The notes under the pieces: generated by a model
The model's input: the letters and a program-made list of their open reading frames with translations, nothing else
What the model was told of the DNA's origin: nothing
Database searches by the model: none
Part shown: in pieces, positions 20,302-28,409 of the stretch
How positions within the stretch are numbered: the stretch's first letter is position 1
Layout of the letters: each line of letters starts with the position of its first letter
Position numbers and translations under genes: made by a program
DNA from: an uncultured Erysipelotrichaceae bacterium
GTDB taxonomy: Bacteria > Bacillota_I > Bacilli_A > Erysipelotrichales > Erysipelotrichaceae
DNA: 33,370 nucleotides
NCBI GenBank assembly: GCA_902786245.1
Contig: CADABS010000035.1
Location: 1 to 33,370, forward strand
Direction of reading: 5' to 3'

Positions 20302-20328
20302 GAAAGCACGGTCAGTTTCCGTGCTTTT
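20302..20328. terminator. Bidirectional terminator between mgtC-like genes and tyrA
   Basis: A GAAAGCACGG / CCGTGCTTTTTC stem with a 7-base loop between two converging genes; T-run on the plus strand and an A-tract on the other side serving the minus strand. Confidence 0.85.
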
Positions 20329-21177
20329 TCATTTCTCAAACATTCTTCTGCGCCGGGTCGATCCGCGCAGTTTTTCTTTCATGCCTTCTTCATCTTCCGT
20401 TTCAAGCAGTGCCCGGAAGGACTGCATCTCTGCGGTAAACGCATCGATTTCACTGAGCAGATAGTCTTTGTTCATCAGGAACAGTTCCGGCCAGAGATCT
20501 TCATTGATCACCGCGATCCGGGTAAGATCCCGGAAGGAATCGCCGGAGTATTCCGCCAGATACTCTGTATCCCGGCTGTTCATCAGACAGACCGCAATGA
20601 CATGGGTCAGCTGCGACAGGAAACCGATCATCTCATCATGTTTTTCTGCGCTCAGGCGGGTGACGGTGCCGAAGCCGAGGATCTTTGCCAGCTGTTCCAT
20701 GGCGCTGATCGCATCTCCGGTATTCTTTTCAGCCGGAACGATGATGAAATTGGCATTTCTGAAGCGTTCCGGATCGGAATAGCGGATGCCCCTGAATTCC
20801 CTTCCTGCCATCGGATGGCAGGCAATGAATTCAATGTCCTCATCCAGCAACGCATTGACCTGTTCAATGATCATCCGCTTGACGCCGGTGACATCGGTCA
20901 GAAGACATCCTTTTTTCAGAACATGTCCGTATGTACGGATCCACTGAATGAATGCATGGGGATACAGACAGCTGATCACGATATCGCAGTCTGCGATCAG
21001 CCGCGGATCAGCGGATCCTTCACTGATCCATCCGTTTTCCTCTGCGATGGCAAGCGTTTCCGCATTGATATCAATGCCTTTGACGGTATACCCGGCACTG
21101 CTCAGTGCTCTCACATAGCTTCCGCCGAGCACACCGAGACCGATGACGCCGAATACGGTATCCTTACTGATATTCAT
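20329..21177 (-). CDS. tyrA: Prephenate dehydrogenase (tyrosine branch)
   Basis: 282 residues from the ATG at 21177 (MNISKDT), which has AGGCGG seven bases upstream; an in-frame GTG three codons earlier is possible. The NAD-binding motif GVIGLGVLGGS, IDIN, DVTGVKR and CHPMAGREFRG identify the family, which converts prephenate to 4-hydroxyphenylpyruvate. The start lies 14 bases inside the 3' end of aroA. It is the last gene of the aromatic operon. The C-terminal ACT domain found in many Firmicute TyrA proteins is absent, so direct tyrosine inhibition through such a domain is not expected; control may lie in the operon attenuator. Confidence 0.92.
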   Translation of the reverse strand: MNISKDTVFGVIGLGVLGGSYVRALSSAGYTVKGIDINAETLAIAEENGWISEGSADPRLIADCDIVISCLYPHAFIQWIRTYGHVLKKGCLLTDVTGVKRMIIEQVNALLDEDIEFIACHPMAGREFRGIRYSDPERFRNANFIIVPAEKNTGDAISAMEQLAKILGFGTVTRLSAEKHDEMIGFLSQLTHVIAVCLMNSRDTEYLAEYSGDSFRDLTRIAVINEDLWPELFLMNKDYLLSEIDAFTAEMQSFRALLETEDEEGMKEKLRGSTRRRRMFEK

Positions 21178-22429
21178 CTGCTTCACCGCCTGCTTTACGG
21201 AAATCTTCGAAAAAGGAAGGATAGCTTTTGTTTACTGCTTCCGCACCGCTGATCCGTACCGGTCCGTCCGCAATGGCAGACAGTACGGAAAGTGCCATGA
21301 CGATCCGGTGGTCGCCATGTCCATCCAGTACCGTATTTCCCCGAATGGCTGTTTTCCCATGGACGCGGACAGTATCTTCCGAAGAAGAGATGATACATCC
21401 GAGCTTCCGCAGTTCTGTTTCCATCGCTGCGATCCGGTCGCTTTCTTTCAGGCGCAGCCTTCCGGCATGCAGGAATACGGTTTCCCCTTCCGCCTGGCTT
21501 GCCAGCGCAAACAGGACAGGACCGAGATCCGGGCAGTCGCCAAGATCAATCTCTGTCCCATGCAGATGCCCCGGCAGAAACCGGTATCCGGATTCCGTTT
21601 CTTCATATGCACAGCCCATATCACGCAGGATGCGCAGAATAACATGATCGCCCTGCCGGCTGTCATGGCGCATGTTGTCCGCCTGCAGTTCTCTGCCGCT
21701 GATGGCACTGAGCACGGCGAAAAACGCCGCCTGTGAATCATCGCCTTCCGCTTTCATTTCAAACGGTCTGTATTTCTGTTTGCCGGGAATCAGGAAGCCG
21801 TCTGCGGTTTCCGTGATGCATATGCCGGCATGGCTGAGAACATCCGCAGTCAGACGGACATAGGACGCTGACGCAAAAGGCGGACGGATGATGATCCGGC
21901 TGTCTTCATGTACCAGAGGAAGCGCAAACAGCAGACCGCTGATGAACTGGGAAGAGATGTTTCCGTCGATTTCAAATGTTCCTCCCCGCAGCGGTCCCTG
22001 TACGGTCAGGGTATCGTTTTTCCGCTCAAACAGAAGCGCCTGGCGGCTGAATATTTCTTCATAGATCTGCAGCGGACGTTCCATCAGTCTGCCCCGTCCC
22101 GTAAATACCGTTTTCTGATCTGACAGTGCAGAAACCGGAATCAGAAAGCGCAGCGTACTGGCGGATTCCCCGCAGCAGATCGCTGTGCCGTCCGGTCTGA
22201 TCATTCCGCCGGTGACAGTCAGAACATCGCCATTGCACTCAACCGCTGCACCGAGTCTGCACAGAGCCTCTGCGGTCGCCTGAATATCGTCATTCATGTC
22301 AATGCCGTGCAGAACGCTTGTCCCTTCCGCCAGCGCCGCCCCGATCAGCATCCGGTGGCTGATGGATTTGCTGGATGGTATTGTGACAGGCGCCTTCTGC
22401 GGATGCATTCCGCCTATGATGACGTCCAT
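21164..22429 (-). CDS. aroA: 3-Phosphoshikimate 1-carboxyvinyltransferase (EPSP synthase)
   Basis: 421 residues, the usual length. Hallmarks include SKSISHRMLIGAAL near the N-terminus, CCGESASTLRFLIP (~85-98), LKESDRI, DGHGDHRIVMAL and NKSYPSFFEDF. It joins PEP to shikimate 3-phosphate, the sixth step of the shikimate pathway. The residue aligned with E. coli Gly96 is Ala (residue 90), and the following Pro101 position is Phe, as judged by aligning on the Arg of this motif. The Gly-to-Ala change is known to reduce glyphosate sensitivity. The ATG is one base from the DAHP synthase stop, and its end overlaps tyrA. Confidence 0.95.
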   Translation of the reverse strand: MDVIIGGMHPQKAPVTIPSSKSISHRMLIGAALAEGTSVLHGIDMNDDIQATAEALCRLGAAVECNGDVLTVTGGMIRPDGTAICCGESASTLRFLIPVSALSDQKTVFTGRGRLMERPLQIYEEIFSRQALLFERKNDTLTVQGPLRGGTFEIDGNISSQFISGLLFALPLVHEDSRIIIRPPFASASYVRLTADVLSHAGICITETADGFLIPGKQKYRPFEMKAEGDDSQAAFFAVLSAISGRELQADNMRHDSRQGDHVILRILRDMGCAYEETESGYRFLPGHLHGTEIDLGDCPDLGPVLFALASQAEGETVFLHAGRLRLKESDRIAAMETELRKLGCIISSSEDTVRVHGKTAIRGNTVLDGHGDHRIVMALSVLSAIADGPVRISGAEAVNKSYPSFFEDFRKAGGEADEYQ

Positions 22430-22430
22430 G

Positions 22431-23447
22431 CTACATATCCCTTCCGATGGCAGCTGCTACCTTGCGGCATCTGCGGATCAGTTCCTGGAAATTCTCCGGT
22501 TTCAGGGACTGGGCACCGTCTGACCAGGCTGAAGACGGATGGTCATGCACTTCAATGATCAGACCGTCTGCCCCGGCCGCAATGGCTGCCAGGGATATCG
22601 GCTCGATCAGTTTCCAGTCGCCGGTCGCATGGGAAGGATCGATAATGACCGGCAGATGGGTGCGCTCCTTGAGAATCGGGATGACCGAAAGATCCATCGT
22701 ATTGCGGGTATAGGTTTCAAAGGTACGGATGCCCCGTTCACAGAAAATGACATTGGGATTGCCGGAAGAAAGAATATACTCGGCCGACATGATCCAGTCT
22801 TCAATGGTCGCGCTCATGCCCCGCTTCAGCAGCACCGGCTTTTTCACATGGCCGACTGCCTTGAGCAGATCGAAGTTCTGCATGTTGCGGGCTCCGATCT
22901 GGATCAGATCGACATTTGCGGCAAATTCATCCAGTTTATCTGCGCTCATCAGTTCGCTGACAACAGGGAGTCCGGTCCTGTCTCTTGCTTCGCACAGATC
23001 CATGATGCCTTCATAGCCGAGTCCCTGGAAGGAATACGGAGAAGTTCTGGGCTTGTAGGCGCCGCCTCTGAGCATATCCGCACCGCATTCGCTGACTTCC
23101 TGGGCGATCCGGCAGATCTGCTCTCTGCCTTCGACGGAGCAGGGCCCGCCTATGACGACGATCTTTTCCTTTCCGCCGACTTTGACACCGGCGACATCGA
23201 CGACCGTATCCTCGGGATGGAACATCCTGTTTGCCAGTTTATAGGGGGCAGAGACACGCTGTACATTCTCAACCCACATATTGGCAAGAATATCTCTTTC
23301 ATAGATATGGGCGGTATCGCCGACCAGACCGAAGACATTGAAGTCCTTGCCTTCGATCAGACTGACCTGCAGTCCTTTTTCTTCGAATGAATCATGCAGT
23401 TTTCTGATTTCTTCCGCCGGAGCGTTTTTCTTCAGGGTGATTATCAT
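22431..23447 (-). CDS. aroF: 3-Deoxy-7-phosphoheptulonate (DAHP) synthase, type I beta
   Basis: 338 residues. The first ~75 residues form a small ferredoxin-like regulatory domain (MIITLKKNAPAEEI...DFNVFGLVGD). The TIM-barrel enzyme follows with IGGPCSVEG, RGGAYKPRTSPYSFQG, KRGMSATIEDW, CERGIRTFE and DPSHATGDW. This is the Thermotoga-like arrangement, where the N-terminal domain mediates Tyr/Phe inhibition, and not the chorismate-mutase fusion of Bacillus. It condenses PEP and erythrose 4-phosphate, the committed step. Its ATG overlaps the aroE-aroK stop (ATGA). The gene symbol is by convention only. Confidence 0.95.
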   Translation of the reverse strand: MIITLKKNAPAEEIRKLHDSFEEKGLQVSLIEGKDFNVFGLVGDTAHIYERDILANMWVENVQRVSAPYKLANRMFHPEDTVVDVAGVKVGGKEKIVVIGGPCSVEGREQICRIAQEVSECGADMLRGGAYKPRTSPYSFQGLGYEGIMDLCEARDRTGLPVVSELMSADKLDEFAANVDLIQIGARNMQNFDLLKAVGHVKKPVLLKRGMSATIEDWIMSAEYILSSGNPNVIFCERGIRTFETYTRNTMDLSVIPILKERTHLPVIIDPSHATGDWKLIEPISLAAIAAGADGLIIEVHDHPSSAWSDGAQSLKPENFQELIRRCRKVAAAIGRDM

Positions 23448-24685
23448 ACAGCAATTCCTGTCCTTTCCACGATCTGCTTTGCCGCATCTTCAGGTGCGGT
23501 GTTGTTGTCGATCTGTATATCGCAGTATTTCCGGTACAGCGGCTCCCGTTCCGCAGCCAGCCGGCGGACAGCCGCAAGGCTGTCTGCCAGCGGTCTTGAA
23601 TCGGTCGGGAACAGTTTTCCGGGATCTCTGCTGATCCGGCAGATAATGCCGTTTTCGCTCAGATACCGCATGGTTTCCTCATCTTTGATGACGCCTCCGC
23701 CGCTGCTGATGATGCGTCCGCCGCCGGAACGCAGCTGTCTGGCCAGATCTTTTTCCGCCTGCCGGAACCAGGCTTCGCCTTTTTCTTCAAAGCAGGTCCG
23801 GATCGGCATCTGCAGCGTTTCTTCCAGCACCTCATCCATCTCGATCCGCTCCATGCCGGTCATTTTCTCCAGCATGGCTGACAGTGTCGTCTTGCCGGAT
23901 GTCGGCATGCCGATGAGAACGATGTTCCGCTGCCGGTTCAGCAGCTGCCGGATACATCTGTCCGTATCTTCCTGCGAAGGCTTTGTGCCGGTAAACAGGA
24001 AGTCGGCCGCGGCTGCCTGGTATACGAGCATCTCAAATCCGCCGATGGCAGGTATCCCCCGCAGCTTTGCCTCAAACTGCAGCCGGGTGCGCAGCGGATT
24101 GGCGACGATATCAATGACATATGACAGATGGCTGAAGCGTGAAAGATCTGCCGGTGCTTCATCATTGCGGGGCACCATTCCGACCGGTGTCGTATTGATC
24201 AGACAGCGGAACATGTCCTCCCGGGCATACATCTGGGCATAGGTCAGTGCCCCGTCTTTCCCGGTCCGGCTGATGACATGCGGTATGCCTCCAAGCTTCA
24301 GGACTGCCTGCACTGCGGCTTTGGAAGCGCCGCCGCTGCCAAGGATTGCCGTATGCAGTCCGGCCAGATCGAATCCGTGTGCTTCGATCATCTGCTGCAG
24401 ACCGATGACATCCGTGTTGTATCCCGTCAGGATGCCATTGCGGCAGACGATGGTATTCACCGCTCCGCACTGTTCCGCCAGCGGATCGGTCCGGTCCAGA
24501 TACGGCATGACTTTCTGTTTATAAGGAATGGTCACATTCAGACCGTCAAAGTCTCTTTTTTCAAGAAATGCCTGTACTTCGTCTTCCTGCAGTTCAAAGA
24601 GCCGGTAATCGGCACCAATCAGGCTCTGATGGATTTCCGGCGACCGGCTGTGTCCGAGCGGGCAGCCGATCAGACCGAGCTTCAC
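23444..24685 (-). CDS. aroE-aroK: Bifunctional shikimate dehydrogenase / shikimate kinase fusion
   Basis: 413 residues joining two enzymes that act in sequence. AroE part (1-~245): SRSPEIHQ, NVTIPYKQ with catalytic Lys56, GYNTD with Asp92, GSGGASKAAV for NADP, NTTPVGM. AroK part (~252-413): Walker A GMPTSGKTT (259-267), EMDEVLEE, SSGGGVIKDEE, DSRPLA and a final YRKYCDIQID. It should reduce 3-dehydroshikimate and then phosphorylate shikimate. The start is GTG at 24685, overlapping the aroC stop (GTGA), and the stop overlaps DAHP synthase. Both active sites look intact. The two genes are normally separate in bacteria. Confidence 0.94.
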   Translation of the reverse strand: MKLGLIGCPLGHSRSPEIHQSLIGADYRLFELQEDEVQAFLEKRDFDGLNVTIPYKQKVMPYLDRTDPLAEQCGAVNTIVCRNGILTGYNTDVIGLQQMIEAHGFDLAGLHTAILGSGGASKAAVQAVLKLGGIPHVISRTGKDGALTYAQMYAREDMFRCLINTTPVGMVPRNDEAPADLSRFSHLSYVIDIVANPLRTRLQFEAKLRGIPAIGGFEMLVYQAAAADFLFTGTKPSQEDTDRCIRQLLNRQRNIVLIGMPTSGKTTLSAMLEKMTGMERIEMDEVLEETLQMPIRTCFEEKGEAWFRQAEKDLARQLRSGGGRIISSGGGVIKDEETMRYLSENGIICRISRDPGKLFPTDSRPLADSLAAVRRLAAEREPLYRKYCDIQIDNNTAPEDAAKQIVERTGIAV

Positions 24686-25776
24686 CGTTCACCTCCGAAG
24701 TGTTCATAGCCATAGCGTCCGATCAGCAGGTCGGCAAAGACGATTGCCGTAACCGCATCGATCACCGGACAGGCTCTGTGCACGATGGCCGGATCATGGC
24801 GTCCGCCGATGCGGATCTGTGTGTTTTCCATGGTTTTCAGATTGACTGTGGACTGGGGTATTCCGATCGAGGGAGTCGGCCGGATCACCGTCTGAAAGCA
24901 GACCGGCATGCCGGTGGTAATACCGCCGCAGATACCGCCGTTATGATTGGTCAGGGTAATGATCTTTCCGTCTTTGACGGCATAGGGATCATTGGCCTGC
25001 GATCCTTTCATATCCGCAAAGCCGAAGCCGCTGCCGAAGGAAACGCCTTTGACTGCAGGCACCGCGAACAGGGCATGGGCCAGCAGGCTTTCGACGGTAT
25101 CGAAGAACGGATCCCCGGTTCCTGCTTCCAGACCGGTCACCGCTGTCTCCAGGATTCCGCCGAGGGAATCATTTTCCCGGGCTGCGGTACGGATCTTCTC
25201 AAGCATCTTCTCTCCCTGTTCATCGGAAAGAACCGGAAATGCTTTGTCTTTCAGTGCATCCATGTCTTTCAGCGGATCCATGGGTCTGTCTTCTATATCC
25301 GCCAGACGCAGAATATGCGTCGCAATATGTATTCCTTCCTGTTCCAGCATATGCATGCATATTGCGCCTGCAGCCGTCAGAGCGGCTGTCAGACGGCCGC
25401 TGAAGTGGCCGCCGCCGCTGGCATCTTCATAGCCCCGGTAGCGGATATGACCGGTATAATCCGCGTGGGAAGGACGCGGTGTATCAGCGAGACGGTCATA
25501 GTCGCTGCGCCGTACATTTTCATTGGGAATCATGATCGTCAGAGGCGTTCCGGTGCTGTATCCGTCTTTGACGCCGGAAAGAAACTGCGGAATATCCGAT
25601 TCGTGGCGGGCAGTTGCGGTTTTTCCGGCAGGTCTGCGCCGGTCCATCAGCGTCATGATTTCTTTTTCATCGATCCTGACGCCGGAAGGCATGCCGTCAA
25701 TGACTGCGCCGACCATCGGTCCGTGCGATTCGCCGACCAGTGTAACGGTCAGATTTCTTCCAAATGTATTATTCAT
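24682..25776 (-). CDS. aroC: Chorismate synthase
   Basis: 364 residues from the ATG at 25776 (MNNTFGRNLTVTLVGESHGP), with AAAGGA upstream; the longer frame to 25866 lies inside aroB and is not used. Signatures are GESHGP, RRRPAGKTATARHESD, GHIRYRGYEDASGGGHFSGRLTA in pieces, and RHDPAIVHRA near the end. It makes chorismate from EPSP with reduced FMN. The start sits eight bases inside the 3' end of aroB and the stop overlaps the aroE-aroK start, so the operon is translationally linked. Confidence 0.95.
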   Translation of the reverse strand: MNNTFGRNLTVTLVGESHGPMVGAVIDGMPSGVRIDEKEIMTLMDRRRPAGKTATARHESDIPQFLSGVKDGYSTGTPLTIMIPNENVRRSDYDRLADTPRPSHADYTGHIRYRGYEDASGGGHFSGRLTAALTAAGAICMHMLEQEGIHIATHILRLADIEDRPMDPLKDMDALKDKAFPVLSDEQGEKMLEKIRTAARENDSLGGILETAVTGLEAGTGDPFFDTVESLLAHALFAVPAVKGVSFGSGFGFADMKGSQANDPYAVKDGKIITLTNHNGGICGGITTGMPVCFQTVIRPTPSIGIPQSTVNLKTMENTQIRIGGRHDPAIVHRACPVIDAVTAIVFADLLIGRYGYEHFGGER

Positions 25777-26776
25777 AATGCAGTTTCCTTTCTGTCTCTT
25801 CCATCGTCCAGGTCTCGATTGTGCCTTTTCCGATCTGATGAACCTGTATGAGAGAAATTGTATCATGGTCCGCCTTTTTATCGGTGCGGATCATCCGCAT
25901 GACTTCCTGCGGATCGGCCTGGCATCGGACGGGAAGACCCATCCGTTCCAGCACCTTCCGCAGTCTTGCCCGGATCTCTTCATCTGCCAGCACGGTCATC
26001 ATGCCCATGGCAACGCATTCGCCATGGAGATATGCATGCAGGCCGCTGACCGATTCATAGGCATGGCCGAAGGTATGGCCGAAATTCAGCAGTTTTCTTT
26101 CACCGCTTTCCCGCTCATCGCGCTCAACGATATCCCGCTTGATTTCCAGACAGCGGCAGATGATCTCATCGAGATGATCCATATAGTCGTCTTTTTCAAA
26201 TACGGCAAAGAGTTTCTCATCGCAGATCATGCCTTCTTTGACTGCCTCGGCCAGTCCGTTGACTACGTGTCTTTTGGGCAGCGTGGAAAGCGTATCCGGG
26301 TCAATCAGAACCATATCCGGCTGCCAGAATGCACCGACGCTGTTCTTATGGCCGTGCAGGTCGACTGCTGTCTTTCCCCCGATCGAGGAATCGATCATCG
26401 ACAGGGTCGTTGTCGGAATATTGACATAGCGGATGCCACGCATATAGCAGGCTGCCGCAAAGCCGCCCATATCCCCGGCGACGCCGCCGCCCAGCACGAT
26501 CACCGTATCATTCCGCGATACATGATGATCCAGCATATCCGCAAGTATATCCTGCAGGACCGTCATATTCTTGTTTTCCTCGCCATGCGGGAATATGTGC
26601 ATATGCGCCTGCGGATACTGCTTCTGCAGGATGCTCTGCCATTGCACGGGTACGCCGTCATCGCTGATCAGAAACACATGGCCGCTGCGGCCGATGATCT
26701 CTGCCGCCCTGGTCAGGATCCCTCTTTCAATGTATACCGGATATGTTCTGTCTTTTGTGCGGACTGTCAGTTTCAT
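25769..26776 (-). CDS. aroB: 3-Dehydroquinate synthase
   Basis: 335 residues with the family motifs VLGGGVAGDMGGFAA, the SMIDSSIGGKTAVDL region, KNSVGAFWQP, KEGMICD and HTFGHAYE. It is NAD- and metal-dependent and converts DAHP to 3-dehydroquinate. GGAG lies ten bases before the ATG at 26776. This is the first structural gene of the aromatic operon, placed only ~18 bases after the U-run of the attenuator terminator (26794-26823), so its expression depends on read-through. Confidence 0.95.
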   Translation of the reverse strand: MKLTVRTKDRTYPVYIERGILTRAAEIIGRSGHVFLISDDGVPVQWQSILQKQYPQAHMHIFPHGEENKNMTVLQDILADMLDHHVSRNDTVIVLGGGVAGDMGGFAAACYMRGIRYVNIPTTTLSMIDSSIGGKTAVDLHGHKNSVGAFWQPDMVLIDPDTLSTLPKRHVVNGLAEAVKEGMICDEKLFAVFEKDDYMDHLDEIICRCLEIKRDIVERDERESGERKLLNFGHTFGHAYESVSGLHAYLHGECVAMGMMTVLADEEIRARLRKVLERMGLPVRCQADPQEVMRMIRTDKKADHDTISLIQVHQIGKGTIETWTMEETERKLHYE

Positions 26777-26793: not shown

Positions 26794-26823
26794 AAAAAAA
26801 ACCATACGGCATTATCCGTATGG
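26794..26823 (-). terminator. Attenuator terminator of the aromatic operon
   Basis: A perfect 8-bp stem, CCATACGG-ATAATG-CCGTATGG, followed by eight Ts on the minus strand, between the leader peptide and aroB. Its loop and inner bases (26808-26816) are also complementary to an upstream segment (26844-26852), so it can be disrupted. Confidence 0.92.
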
Positions 26824-26886
26824 CTTTCATTGCTTTTCCATCAGATAATGCCTGCAAACAGAAACGGGCAATATCTGTGATTGCCC
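26802..26886 (-). promoter_or_regulatory. Four-segment alternating RNA switch (attenuator) in the aro leader
   Basis: In transcript order: segment A GGGCAAT (26880-26886), B GATATTGCCC (26866-26875), C GGCATTATC (26844-26852), D GATAATGCC (26808-26816, inside the terminator). A pairs perfectly with B (7 bp). B pairs with C (GATA/TATC and TGCC/GGCA around one T-T mismatch). C pairs perfectly with D (9 bp, plus ATGG/CCAT further in) and would destroy the terminator. A begins four bases after the leader-peptide stop codon, so a ribosome at that stop would cover it. The predicted logic: stalling frees A, giving A:B, C:D and read-through; complete translation hides A, giving B:C and termination. 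Confidence 0.82.
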
Positions 26887-26889
26887 TGT

Positions 26890-26934
26890 CTATCTAAAGT
26901 AAAAGCTGTAAAATCTTTTTGTCAGTGTATGCAT
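26890..26934 (-). CDS. Phe/Tyr-rich leader peptide of the aromatic operon
   Basis: A 14-codon reading frame, MHTLTKRFYSFYFR, from ATG at 26934 to TAG at 26890, with purine-rich GGAGACGGAAG upstream. Five of its last seven residues are aromatic (F-Y-S-F-Y-F). It lies between the promoter and the attenuator of an operon for Phe/Tyr precursors, like the pheA and trp leader peptides of enteric bacteria. The role is as a sensor of charged tRNA-Phe and tRNA-Tyr rather than as a protein. Confidence 0.85.
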   Translation of the reverse strand: MHTLTKRFYSFYFR

Positions 26935-26953
26935 GTTTTCTTCCGTCTCCGTA

Positions 26954-26982
26954 ATCGTACACGAGCAGGATTCATATTTCAA
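26954..26982 (-). promoter_or_regulatory. Promoter of the aromatic operon
   Basis: TTGAAA (26977-26982), 17 bp and TACGAT (26954-26959) on the minus strand. It fits in the gap after the EIIB-ROK gene stop (27000) and would start the RNA just before the leader-peptide ribosome binding site. Confidence 0.7.
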
Positions 26983-26999: not shown

Positions 27000-28409
27000 C
27001 TATTCCGGTTTGTTTTCAAAATCCTTTGCCAGAGCGATTCCGCCGGCGAACATGTATTCGGAAACATCATCCACCTTGATCATATCCGGCAGGAAATCAG
27101 GCCGGATATCCATGGCCAGGCGGTTGCGGAGGATATCGAGATCGGGAATCATATCGCAGGAAATCGCGATCGCTTCAGGATCGACGCAGGAGATGATCGC
27201 GGTCAGATACTTCGAGACCAGTTCCAGGCTTCCTTCCGGTGTCCGGGCAAGTTCCCGGGGCTCGGCGGAGAATTCCATGATATTGACAATGAACTGCATT
27301 TCTCCGGCAATATTGTTTCTGCCCCGCAGCAGTTTTCCGTCGACAATGTGTCCGACGCCGCAGATCCTTGCGGCATGGGGATGGAAGTAGAAACTGATAT
27401 TGCTGTATTTTTCCTGCAGTGCGTGGAAGCCGAGGGCCATGGCATTGGCGTCATTGATGAAGATGACCCGCTTCTCATAGCGGTTCTCAAAGCGCTTCTG
27501 CACTTCAACATCATAGATGCGCGATTCTTTGAAAGTCAGGCGGCCGCGGTCGATGACACCCGGTGTCGCAATGCATATGGTATCGATCAGATTGTTCGAG
27601 ACGACGACATCGATCAGGTCTTCGAGGTCGCGGACCGTATAGGTTCCCTTGATGATCTGGTTCTGACGCACGATCCGGCCATGTTCATAGACCCGGTACA
27701 TGATCTTTTTGACATCGTATTCGCAGATGACTGCGATGACCAGGATCGATCCGGCAAAATACAGTTTTTCCGTATTTTCATGCACTTCCCGGACAACACG
27801 CTTCTTTTCTGCTGTTTTTTCAGCGACCAGCCGCAGCAGTCCTTCTGTGTCATACTGGGCGAAGATCGCCGTCGGCACGCTGGTGACGATTGTGTCTTTC
27901 AGGATGCCGCGCACGGTCGGATACAGATAGCGGATCTGGGGTGCGAGCAGTACGACATCGGCACTGAAGCCGGAGACAAACAGACGGTCATAGGAAACAG
28001 CCGAAAATTCATAATTCAGATTCAGAAGATCTGCGGCTTCCTGCAGCTTGAGAACAAAGAAAGAAGTCGTCAGGGCACTGCTGCAGCAGAGAATGACCTT
28101 TGTCTTCTGCTTATCCTTGAGTTCGATAAAGCATTCGATCATCTCCCTGAACAGTTCTTTGGCATGATCGAGATCATACATTTCAAAATGGAGATAAAAC
28201 TGGTTGGAATCATCTTTGCGGCTGATGATCTCCAGTTCGCATACTGTTGCCTGCAGTTCGATGAAATCGACAAACGCATCGGCATACGGCGCTGACAGTT
28301 TAATGCGCTCATGGCCGTTGACGCTGATCTGCTCGATCGTATACTCATCGGAAGTCTGCTGCAGGATCCATTCTTTGTATTCCCGGATGATTTCTTCAGT
28401 ATTTGCCAT
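27000..28409 (-). CDS. PTS EIIB-like / ROK-like fusion protein, probable sugar-linked regulator
   Basis: 469 residues in three parts. Residues 1-~100 are an unfamiliar mixed helical/strand domain. Residues ~103-195 look like a lactose/cellobiose-type PTS EIIB domain: KVILCCSSALTTSFF with the phosphorylatable-type Cys109, then DVVLLAPQIRYLYP. Residues ~218-469 follow the ROK fold (CIATPGVIDRG, INDANAMALGFHALQ, GHIVDGKLLRGRNNIAGEMQF). The ROK part lacks the N-terminal DxGxT phosphate loop and the CxCGxxGC zinc motif, so kinase activity is doubtful. No winged-helix domain is evident. It probably senses PTS phosphorylation or a sugar. The start ATG has GGAAGG upstream; it lies just before the aro promoter. 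Confidence 0.75.
   Translation of the reverse strand: MANTEEIIREYKEWILQQTSDEYTIEQISVNGHERIKLSAPYADAFVDFIELQATVCELEIISRKDDSNQFYLHFEMYDLDHAKELFREMIECFIELKDKQKTKVILCCSSALTTSFFVLKLQEAADLLNLNYEFSAVSYDRLFVSGFSADVVLLAPQIRYLYPTVRGILKDTIVTSVPTAIFAQYDTEGLLRLVAEKTAEKKRVVREVHENTEKLYFAGSILVIAVICEYDVKKIMYRVYEHGRIVRQNQIIKGTYTVRDLEDLIDVVVSNNLIDTICIATPGVIDRGRLTFKESRIYDVEVQKRFENRYEKRVIFINDANAMALGFHALQEKYSNISFYFHPHAARICGVGHIVDGKLLRGRNNIAGEMQFIVNIMEFSAEPRELARTPEGSLELVSKYLTAIISCVDPEAIAISCDMIPDLDILRNRLAMDIRPDFLPDMIKVDDVSEYMFAGGIALAKDFENKPE

Follow-up and report, generated by a model that had tools for sequence, protein, structure and literature searches.

Sequence evidence for a probable Phe/Tyr leader-peptide attenuator upstream of the aroB operon in Erysipelotrichaceae

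The window, by which we mean the whole stretch of 33,370 nucleotides analysed here (contig CADABS010000035.1 of an uncultured gut Erysipelotrichaceae bacterium), carries an operon for aromatic biosynthesis on the minus strand. It begins with aroB, encoding 3-dehydroquinate synthase (25769..26776; Pfam PF01761, PF24621), followed by aroC for chorismate synthase (24682..25776; Pfam PF01264), the start of which was inferred at MNNTFGRN and overlaps aroB. Further downstream are an aroE-aroK fusion for shikimate dehydrogenase and shikimate kinase (23444..24685; Pfam PF08501, PF01202; NCBIfam), a gene for a DAHP synthase with a ferredoxin-like domain (22431..23447; Pfam PF00793, PF18152; TIGR01361), aroA for EPSP synthase (21164..22429; Pfam PF00275) and tyrA for prephenate dehydrogenase (20329..21186; Pfam PF02153, PF20463). 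These genes form a single run in which neighbours overlap or abut. A terminator-like hairpin in the sequence directly 3' of tyrA (20303..20327) is likely the operon end. The pheA gene of this genome sits elsewhere. On the same strand upstream of the operon, a gene at 27000-28409 encodes one protein with weak matches to both ROK and PTS_IIB domains, which is an odd pairing.

The leader upstream of aroB, also read on the minus strand, starts with a promoter sequence. A -35 hexamer (TTGAAA; 26977..26982) and a -10 hexamer (TACGAT; 26954..26959) are separated by a 17-nt spacer, and transcription is predicted to start at about 26946-26948. An SD-like sequence, GGAGACGGAAG (GGAG/GGAAG; 26940..26950), with an anti-SD pairing energy of -6.6 kcal/mol, lies 5' of a leader peptide frame of 14 codons, MHTLTKRFYSFYFR (26890..26934), that has its ATG at 26934, ends with the stop codon TAG and is conserved as a Phe/Tyr frame in relatives. 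The frame reads ATG CAT ACA CTG ACA AAA AGA TTT TAC AGC TTT TAC TTT AGA TAG (26934-26890), with TTT TAC AGC TTT TAC TTT (F-Y-S-F-Y-F; 26896..26913) as putative control codons. A terminator, CCATACGG-ATAATG-CCGTATGG-U8 (26823-26794), follows, and then come the SD of aroB (AAGGAGA; 26792-26786) and its ATG at 26776. The leader folds at -46.6 kcal/mol, compared to -29.5 kcal/mol for dinucleotide shuffles (z -4.9). The first-pass annotation had named a promoter, an SD-like site, a 14-codon frame ending in Phe/Tyr codons, a terminator and aroB, and all of them were found at these minus-strand positions. The range that it gave, 26890-26982, is right for promoter and peptide, but the switch extends on to 26794. 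A longer frame starting with TTG (26982) was rejected as the peptide; it overlaps the promoter.

T-box or TRAP-type control is usual for Firmicutes, and T-boxes are the usual Gram-positive sensors. Such control of the aroB operon would fit a genome that has 19 T-box matches (L071-L089), many of them before tRNA-synthetase genes and including sites before pheS-, tyrS- and trpS-like genes. Among the proteins encoded after these T-boxes are synthetases, named by inspection, for Val, His, Ser, Met, Tyr, Cys, Leu, Ala, Phe, Thr, Trp and Ile. However, none of the 19 T-boxes is located in this contig, and a T-box would not fit into so short a leader. An Rfam search of the whole window yielded neither a T-box (RF00230) nor any other family at threshold (gathering score), and at the sensitivity of Rfam T-box control is refuted. 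The series of about 11 closely spaced (G/U)AG triplets of a TRAP-regulated leader was absent when the leader sequence was read. The probability that a T-box or a TRAP-type system controls this operon is negligible.

Relatives were fetched by means of AroB (48 of 60 genomes), giving 40 loci, mostly from metagenome-assembled genomes of Erysipelotrichaceae and 'Solobacterium', many of them ruminant. AroB identity within the genus was 55-70%. Before most close aroB genes there is an ATG frame of 8-15 codons with a terminal Phe/Tyr run, usually closed by Arg and the stop codon (for example MNTKASLFYFYFR, MKTFRSYYYYYVG, MISNMYYYFYR and MKKTVLFYFYYFR), and the distance from this stop codon to aroB is 102-148 nt. 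The N-termini of the peptides vary among relatives, while the Phe/Tyr run and its position are kept. Of the final seven in-frame codons in 37 leaders, 74% specify Phe or Tyr; the two alternative frames yield 15% and 14%. The eight-codon end contains 5.19 Phe/Tyr codons, compared to 2.29 in stop-free dinucleotide shuffles (37 leaders). Over the whole peptides (498 residues), 121 Tyr, 86 Phe and no Trp were counted. An ATG and an in-frame stop codon are present in all leaders, with varying nucleotides in between. The comparison thus bears out the expectation that a short aromatic frame is conserved in position before the aroB genes of relatives while its other residues vary. Two loci stand apart taxonomically. 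A contig filed as Mogibacterium (L062) has an Erysipelotrichaceae-type aroB with leader and likely reflects a binning error or a transfer. Faecalimonas umbilicata (Lachnospiraceae; L066) carries MRMNYLVSVFYFYR before aroB, with unrelated RNA downstream.

The last residue of the peptide is R in 30 and G in 5 of the 37 leaders. An aromatic peptide with such an ending (R or G in 35/37) could also be an arrest peptide of the TnaC type, where the ribosome is halted by the nascent chain, with free Phe or Tyr acting as its ligand, and not by uncharged tRNA. Arrest peptides in general require fixed residues, whereas F and Y interchange freely along the run. The R or G is explained by an RNA segment, AGATA or GGATA, that pairs with TATCT or TATCC, and some leaders end without R. 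In L067/L121, L201 and L202 the Arg codon has been lost (FYF* then ATA) and the AGATA nucleotides are retained. Because these nucleotides persist after loss of the codon, AGATA appears to be an RNA element. We regard an arrest peptide as very improbable.

Between the control codons and aroB, the RNA can be divided into segments with alternative partners. Segment 1 (26891..26906), consisting of the last control codons and AGATA, is complementary to segment C. Segment A (GGGCAAT; 26880..26886), with which the first hairpin of the leader starts 4 nt past the peptide stop codon, pairs with segment B (CAGATATTGCCC; 26866..26877), and B can pair with either A or C. This hairpin is followed by a second complementary stretch and then by the terminator. 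Segment C (GGCATTATCTGATGGAAAAGC; 26832..26852) can pair with 1, B or D, and segment D (GCCATACGGATAATGCC; 26808..26824) can pair with C, as antiterminator, or with segment E, as terminator. Segment E comprises CCGTATGG and the U-tract of the terminator (26794..26809). Segment C is complementary to both B and D, segment B to both A and C, and segment D to both C and E, so that the helices are mutually exclusive. Pairing was counted on an alignment of 26 leaders, whose relatedness inflates the counts and from which the helices themselves were derived, and compared with shuffles: the D:E terminator was paired to 98.3%, with 5 of 9 pairs changed on both sides, and A:B to 87.5%. Taken jointly, A:B and D:E had 93.6% of cells paired and 31 double-changed cells, compared to 10.5 in shuffles. 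The alternative helices showed the same tendency, with 96.9% pairing for the C:D antiterminator (double-changed cells 4 vs 0.7 in shuffles), 87.6% for B:C (10 vs 4.0) and 94.5% for 1:C (11 vs 4.3). When the partner was slid by 1-3 columns as a control, pairing was only 25-52%. The leader therefore shows several features of a leader-peptide attenuator, namely a translatable frame with a start signal directly upstream of the operon, a cognate codon run, an intrinsic terminator and an exclusive antiterminator.

The pairing of segment 1 raises the question whether the Phe/Tyr codons are a mere by-product of a U-rich strand that pairs with C, the switch being thrown by a protein or a small molecule. 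Indeed, the control codons pair with C and the tail of C better than shuffled sequences do; this duplex reaches past AGATA further than with shuffled tails (mean z -1.23; negative in 24/27), and AGATA is kept as RNA. However, pairing alone requires no Phe/Tyr in a single frame, and Phe and Tyr are enriched only when the codons are read in register with the ATG (74% vs 15/14%), where they are far more frequent than in dinucleotide shuffles. Moreover, every leader retains the ATG and a stop codon in frame with it, though the nucleotides between them vary. We therefore consider a by-product very improbable. The position of the hairpin just 5' of the aroB SD (26792) would also suit translation attenuation, where the hairpin hides this ribosome binding site and transcription is not ended. 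This is contradicted by the U-rich tract that follows the terminator stem on its 3' side in the aligned copies and by the SD, which is located outside the hairpin; such a mechanism is extremely improbable.

Very probably, the aroB operon is controlled by ribosome-mediated transcription attenuation via the Phe/Tyr codons of the leader peptide. The proposal of the first-pass annotation, that the leader peptide controls the shikimate operon down to tyrA, gains support from the conserved frame and from the covarying alternative helices. From these features we infer that the ribosome stalls, that tRNA charging is the signal and that folding proceeds in the following order. Transcription would start about 13 nt 5' of the peptide, and a ribosome would begin the 14-codon leader. 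A shortage of charged tRNA-Phe or tRNA-Tyr would make the ribosome wait on the F-Y-S-F-Y-F codons. There it would cover segment 1 and leave A free, so that A:B could form and C would be available for D. The C:D antiterminator would then let RNA polymerase enter aroB-aroC-aroEK-DAHP synthase-aroA-tyrA. With both tRNAs charged, the ribosome would reach the stop codon and cover A, whereupon B:C would pair and the D:E terminator would form. If the ribosome has gone or was never loaded, segment 1 may also capture C.

Equilibrium folding of 36 leaders was carried out with a ribosome footprint extending 12 nt beyond the first A-site base. The mean terminator probability was 0.90 without a ribosome and rose to 0.97 once the ribosome was placed on the stop codon. 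With the A site at codons -7 to -2, it was 0.88, 0.78, 0.67, 0.60, 0.63 and 0.74, respectively. Several of the 36 leaders show no such dip. The window leader favours the antiterminator in the absence of a ribosome (terminator probability 0.28), and its dip lies at codons -7 to -5, not at -4 to -3. For leaders from genera further away, equilibrium folding gives a weaker switch or none; the model is uninformative for several of them, and their means were set aside because the frames of L199 and L207 had been taken on the wrong strand. In RNA truncated before segment E, C:D dominates, with 0.87 for the stalled ribosome compared to 0.66 at the stop codon, and the two states are poorly separated. 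Since folding without the second arm of the terminator is indecisive, the course of events proposed for transcription is an inference.

The distribution of the switch was analysed with two covariance models. R1 includes the peptide codons and therefore favours Phe/Tyr codons; R2 was built from the region 3' of the stop codon only, which corrects for that bias. In 70 genomes of the genus, R2 found one strong copy in 31 (E <= 1.6e-10; next best 0.002), and R1 found the same 31 genomes. All R2 copies read at sequence level carry a Phe/Tyr-rich frame; a few copies were read via the matching aroB locus. Among the copies inspected as sequence, no relative combined the same switch and terminator with the lack of an aromatic frame, a finding that would have spoken against the proposed control. 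At the level of the family, R1 had matches in 56/273 genomes and 15/60 genera. The matches inspected were mostly located before aroB and once before a DAHP synthase gene (L200). In another family, a leader also precedes a DAHP synthase gene (L122). In genomes G531 and G532, the leader matched by R1 has an all-Phe run (SFFFFFR) and precedes a gene for a TrpX-like ABC substrate-binding protein, named after an NCBIfam TrpX match below the cut-off of that model. Codon content thus goes with the gene controlled, because the all-Phe run precedes a different target in these genomes. For the R1-matched all-Phe leader (MVNNHNITNISFFFFFR) of L209 (301-446) and L210, the TrpX-like ABC substrate-binding protein that follows suggests an aromatic importer, perhaps for Phe, as the target. 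Weak matches in the family (E about 0.001-0.01), L211-L215 among them, are of doubtful validity. L211, L212 and L214, which are weak model matches with a self-pairing frame, have a short frame with a conserved K-W-Q-F-Y-F; in L211 this frame precedes a family 3 solute-binding protein.

The element is absent from a clade (L012, L013, L050, L054 and relatives) with aroB immediately after pheA, and a search for a leader before the pheA-aroB operons of this clade found none. Since the clade is a single group on the aroB tree (100/100), its absence is consistent with one loss. Such a leader was also sought before the window genome's own pheA, and none was found. A search of 395 genomes of the class for the codon pattern alone (TWY x4 then MGATAR) gave as many matches as the reversed control. 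Recurring sites of this pattern in one sister family lie inside ordinary genes.

Candidate promoters with spacers of 16-18 nt are found before nearly all related leaders. The ATG is positioned only 6-9 nt past the -10 box in 15 of 37 leaders, and exactly 6 nt in eight of them; this count excludes L047 and L067, where the distance would be an implausible zero or one nt. Loci with such a short distance include L009, L010, L023, L055, L058, L059, L061 and L065. At the same 27 loci, the mean SD pairing energy was -2.8 kcal/mol for the leaders compared to -9.2 kcal/mol for aroB (Wilcoxon p 8e-6). Because the ATG is close to the -10 box and the SDs are weak, these leader transcripts look leaderless. 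The leader of the window is not of this type, and in other genera of the family most leaders have SDs (about -6 to -7 kcal/mol). Mapped onto the aroB tree, the leaderless appearance switched about six times, with good branch support for at least three of these changes. One documented leaderless leader peptide is trpL of Sinorhizobium meliloti (PMC7298713). Judged from sequence, the prediction that many attenuator peptides of the genus are translated from leaderless transcripts has an even chance of being correct. If true, it would represent leaderless ribosome-mediated attenuation in a Firmicute, repeatedly gained or lost.

Leader-peptide attenuation is best known from E. coli. The aroB leader resembles pheL, trpL and hisL of that organism in having a short peptide with codons for the end product, mutually exclusive hairpins and an intrinsic terminator before the first gene, and it resembles the his attenuator in its chain of more than four segments. 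In contrast to pheL (Rfam Phe_leader, RF01859), it is unrelated in sequence, mixes Phe and Tyr codons and would control the common shikimate operon and tyrA, not pheA. RF01859 scored 15 bits over the leader, against a cut-off of 55. The leu/phe leader of Lactococcus lactis (RF01743; PMC2864571) is a Gram-positive RNA family; it had no match at the gathering score in the window and was absent among the weak matches listed for the leader. The view that leader-peptide control is exceptional for Firmicutes was overstated. His leader peptides were predicted earlier for hisS/hisZ of Firmicutes (PMC2965389) and for his operons, including those of six Erysipelotrichales (PMC9413887); these attenuators are of the same kind and come in part from the same order, but have His codons and his genes. 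For aromatic genes, Fig. 6b of Stav et al. 2019 (PMC6429828) reports uORFs with Phe/Tyr codons near shikimate genes among candidates from a set of five genomes that includes Clostridium novyi. They share Phe and Tyr codons and shikimate genes with the aroB leader, a likeness drawn from the description in that figure. uORFC-13-1, reported only from Acholeplasma and environmental DNA (Brewer et al. 2021, PMC8632094), is similar to the aroB leader in its Phe-codon uORF, its terminator and its DAHP synthase gene, but is located upstream of aroF, whereas the leader described here precedes aroB. Because Firmicute leader peptides and Phe/Tyr uORFs of shikimate genes had been predicted, this kind of attenuator was already known. 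A description of the aroB leader family, of its five-way pairing or of the variation in its start signals was not found in the literature searched (supplements excepted).

Taken together, the sequences support an attenuator family for aromatic biosynthesis, with dozens of members and covariation, in a Gram-positive family that is rich in T-boxes. As a prediction, the aroB leader family is a new and well-supported addition to the known leader-peptide attenuators of Firmicutes. In the genome of the window, T-boxes stand before genes for tRNA synthetases, among them pheS and tyrS, and the biosynthetic operon is apparently read out by the ribosome. The family also offers natural experiments. Runs of Phe/Tyr and of Phe-only codons track different targets, a clade in which aroB follows pheA has no element, and SD-led leaders exist alongside apparently leaderless ones.
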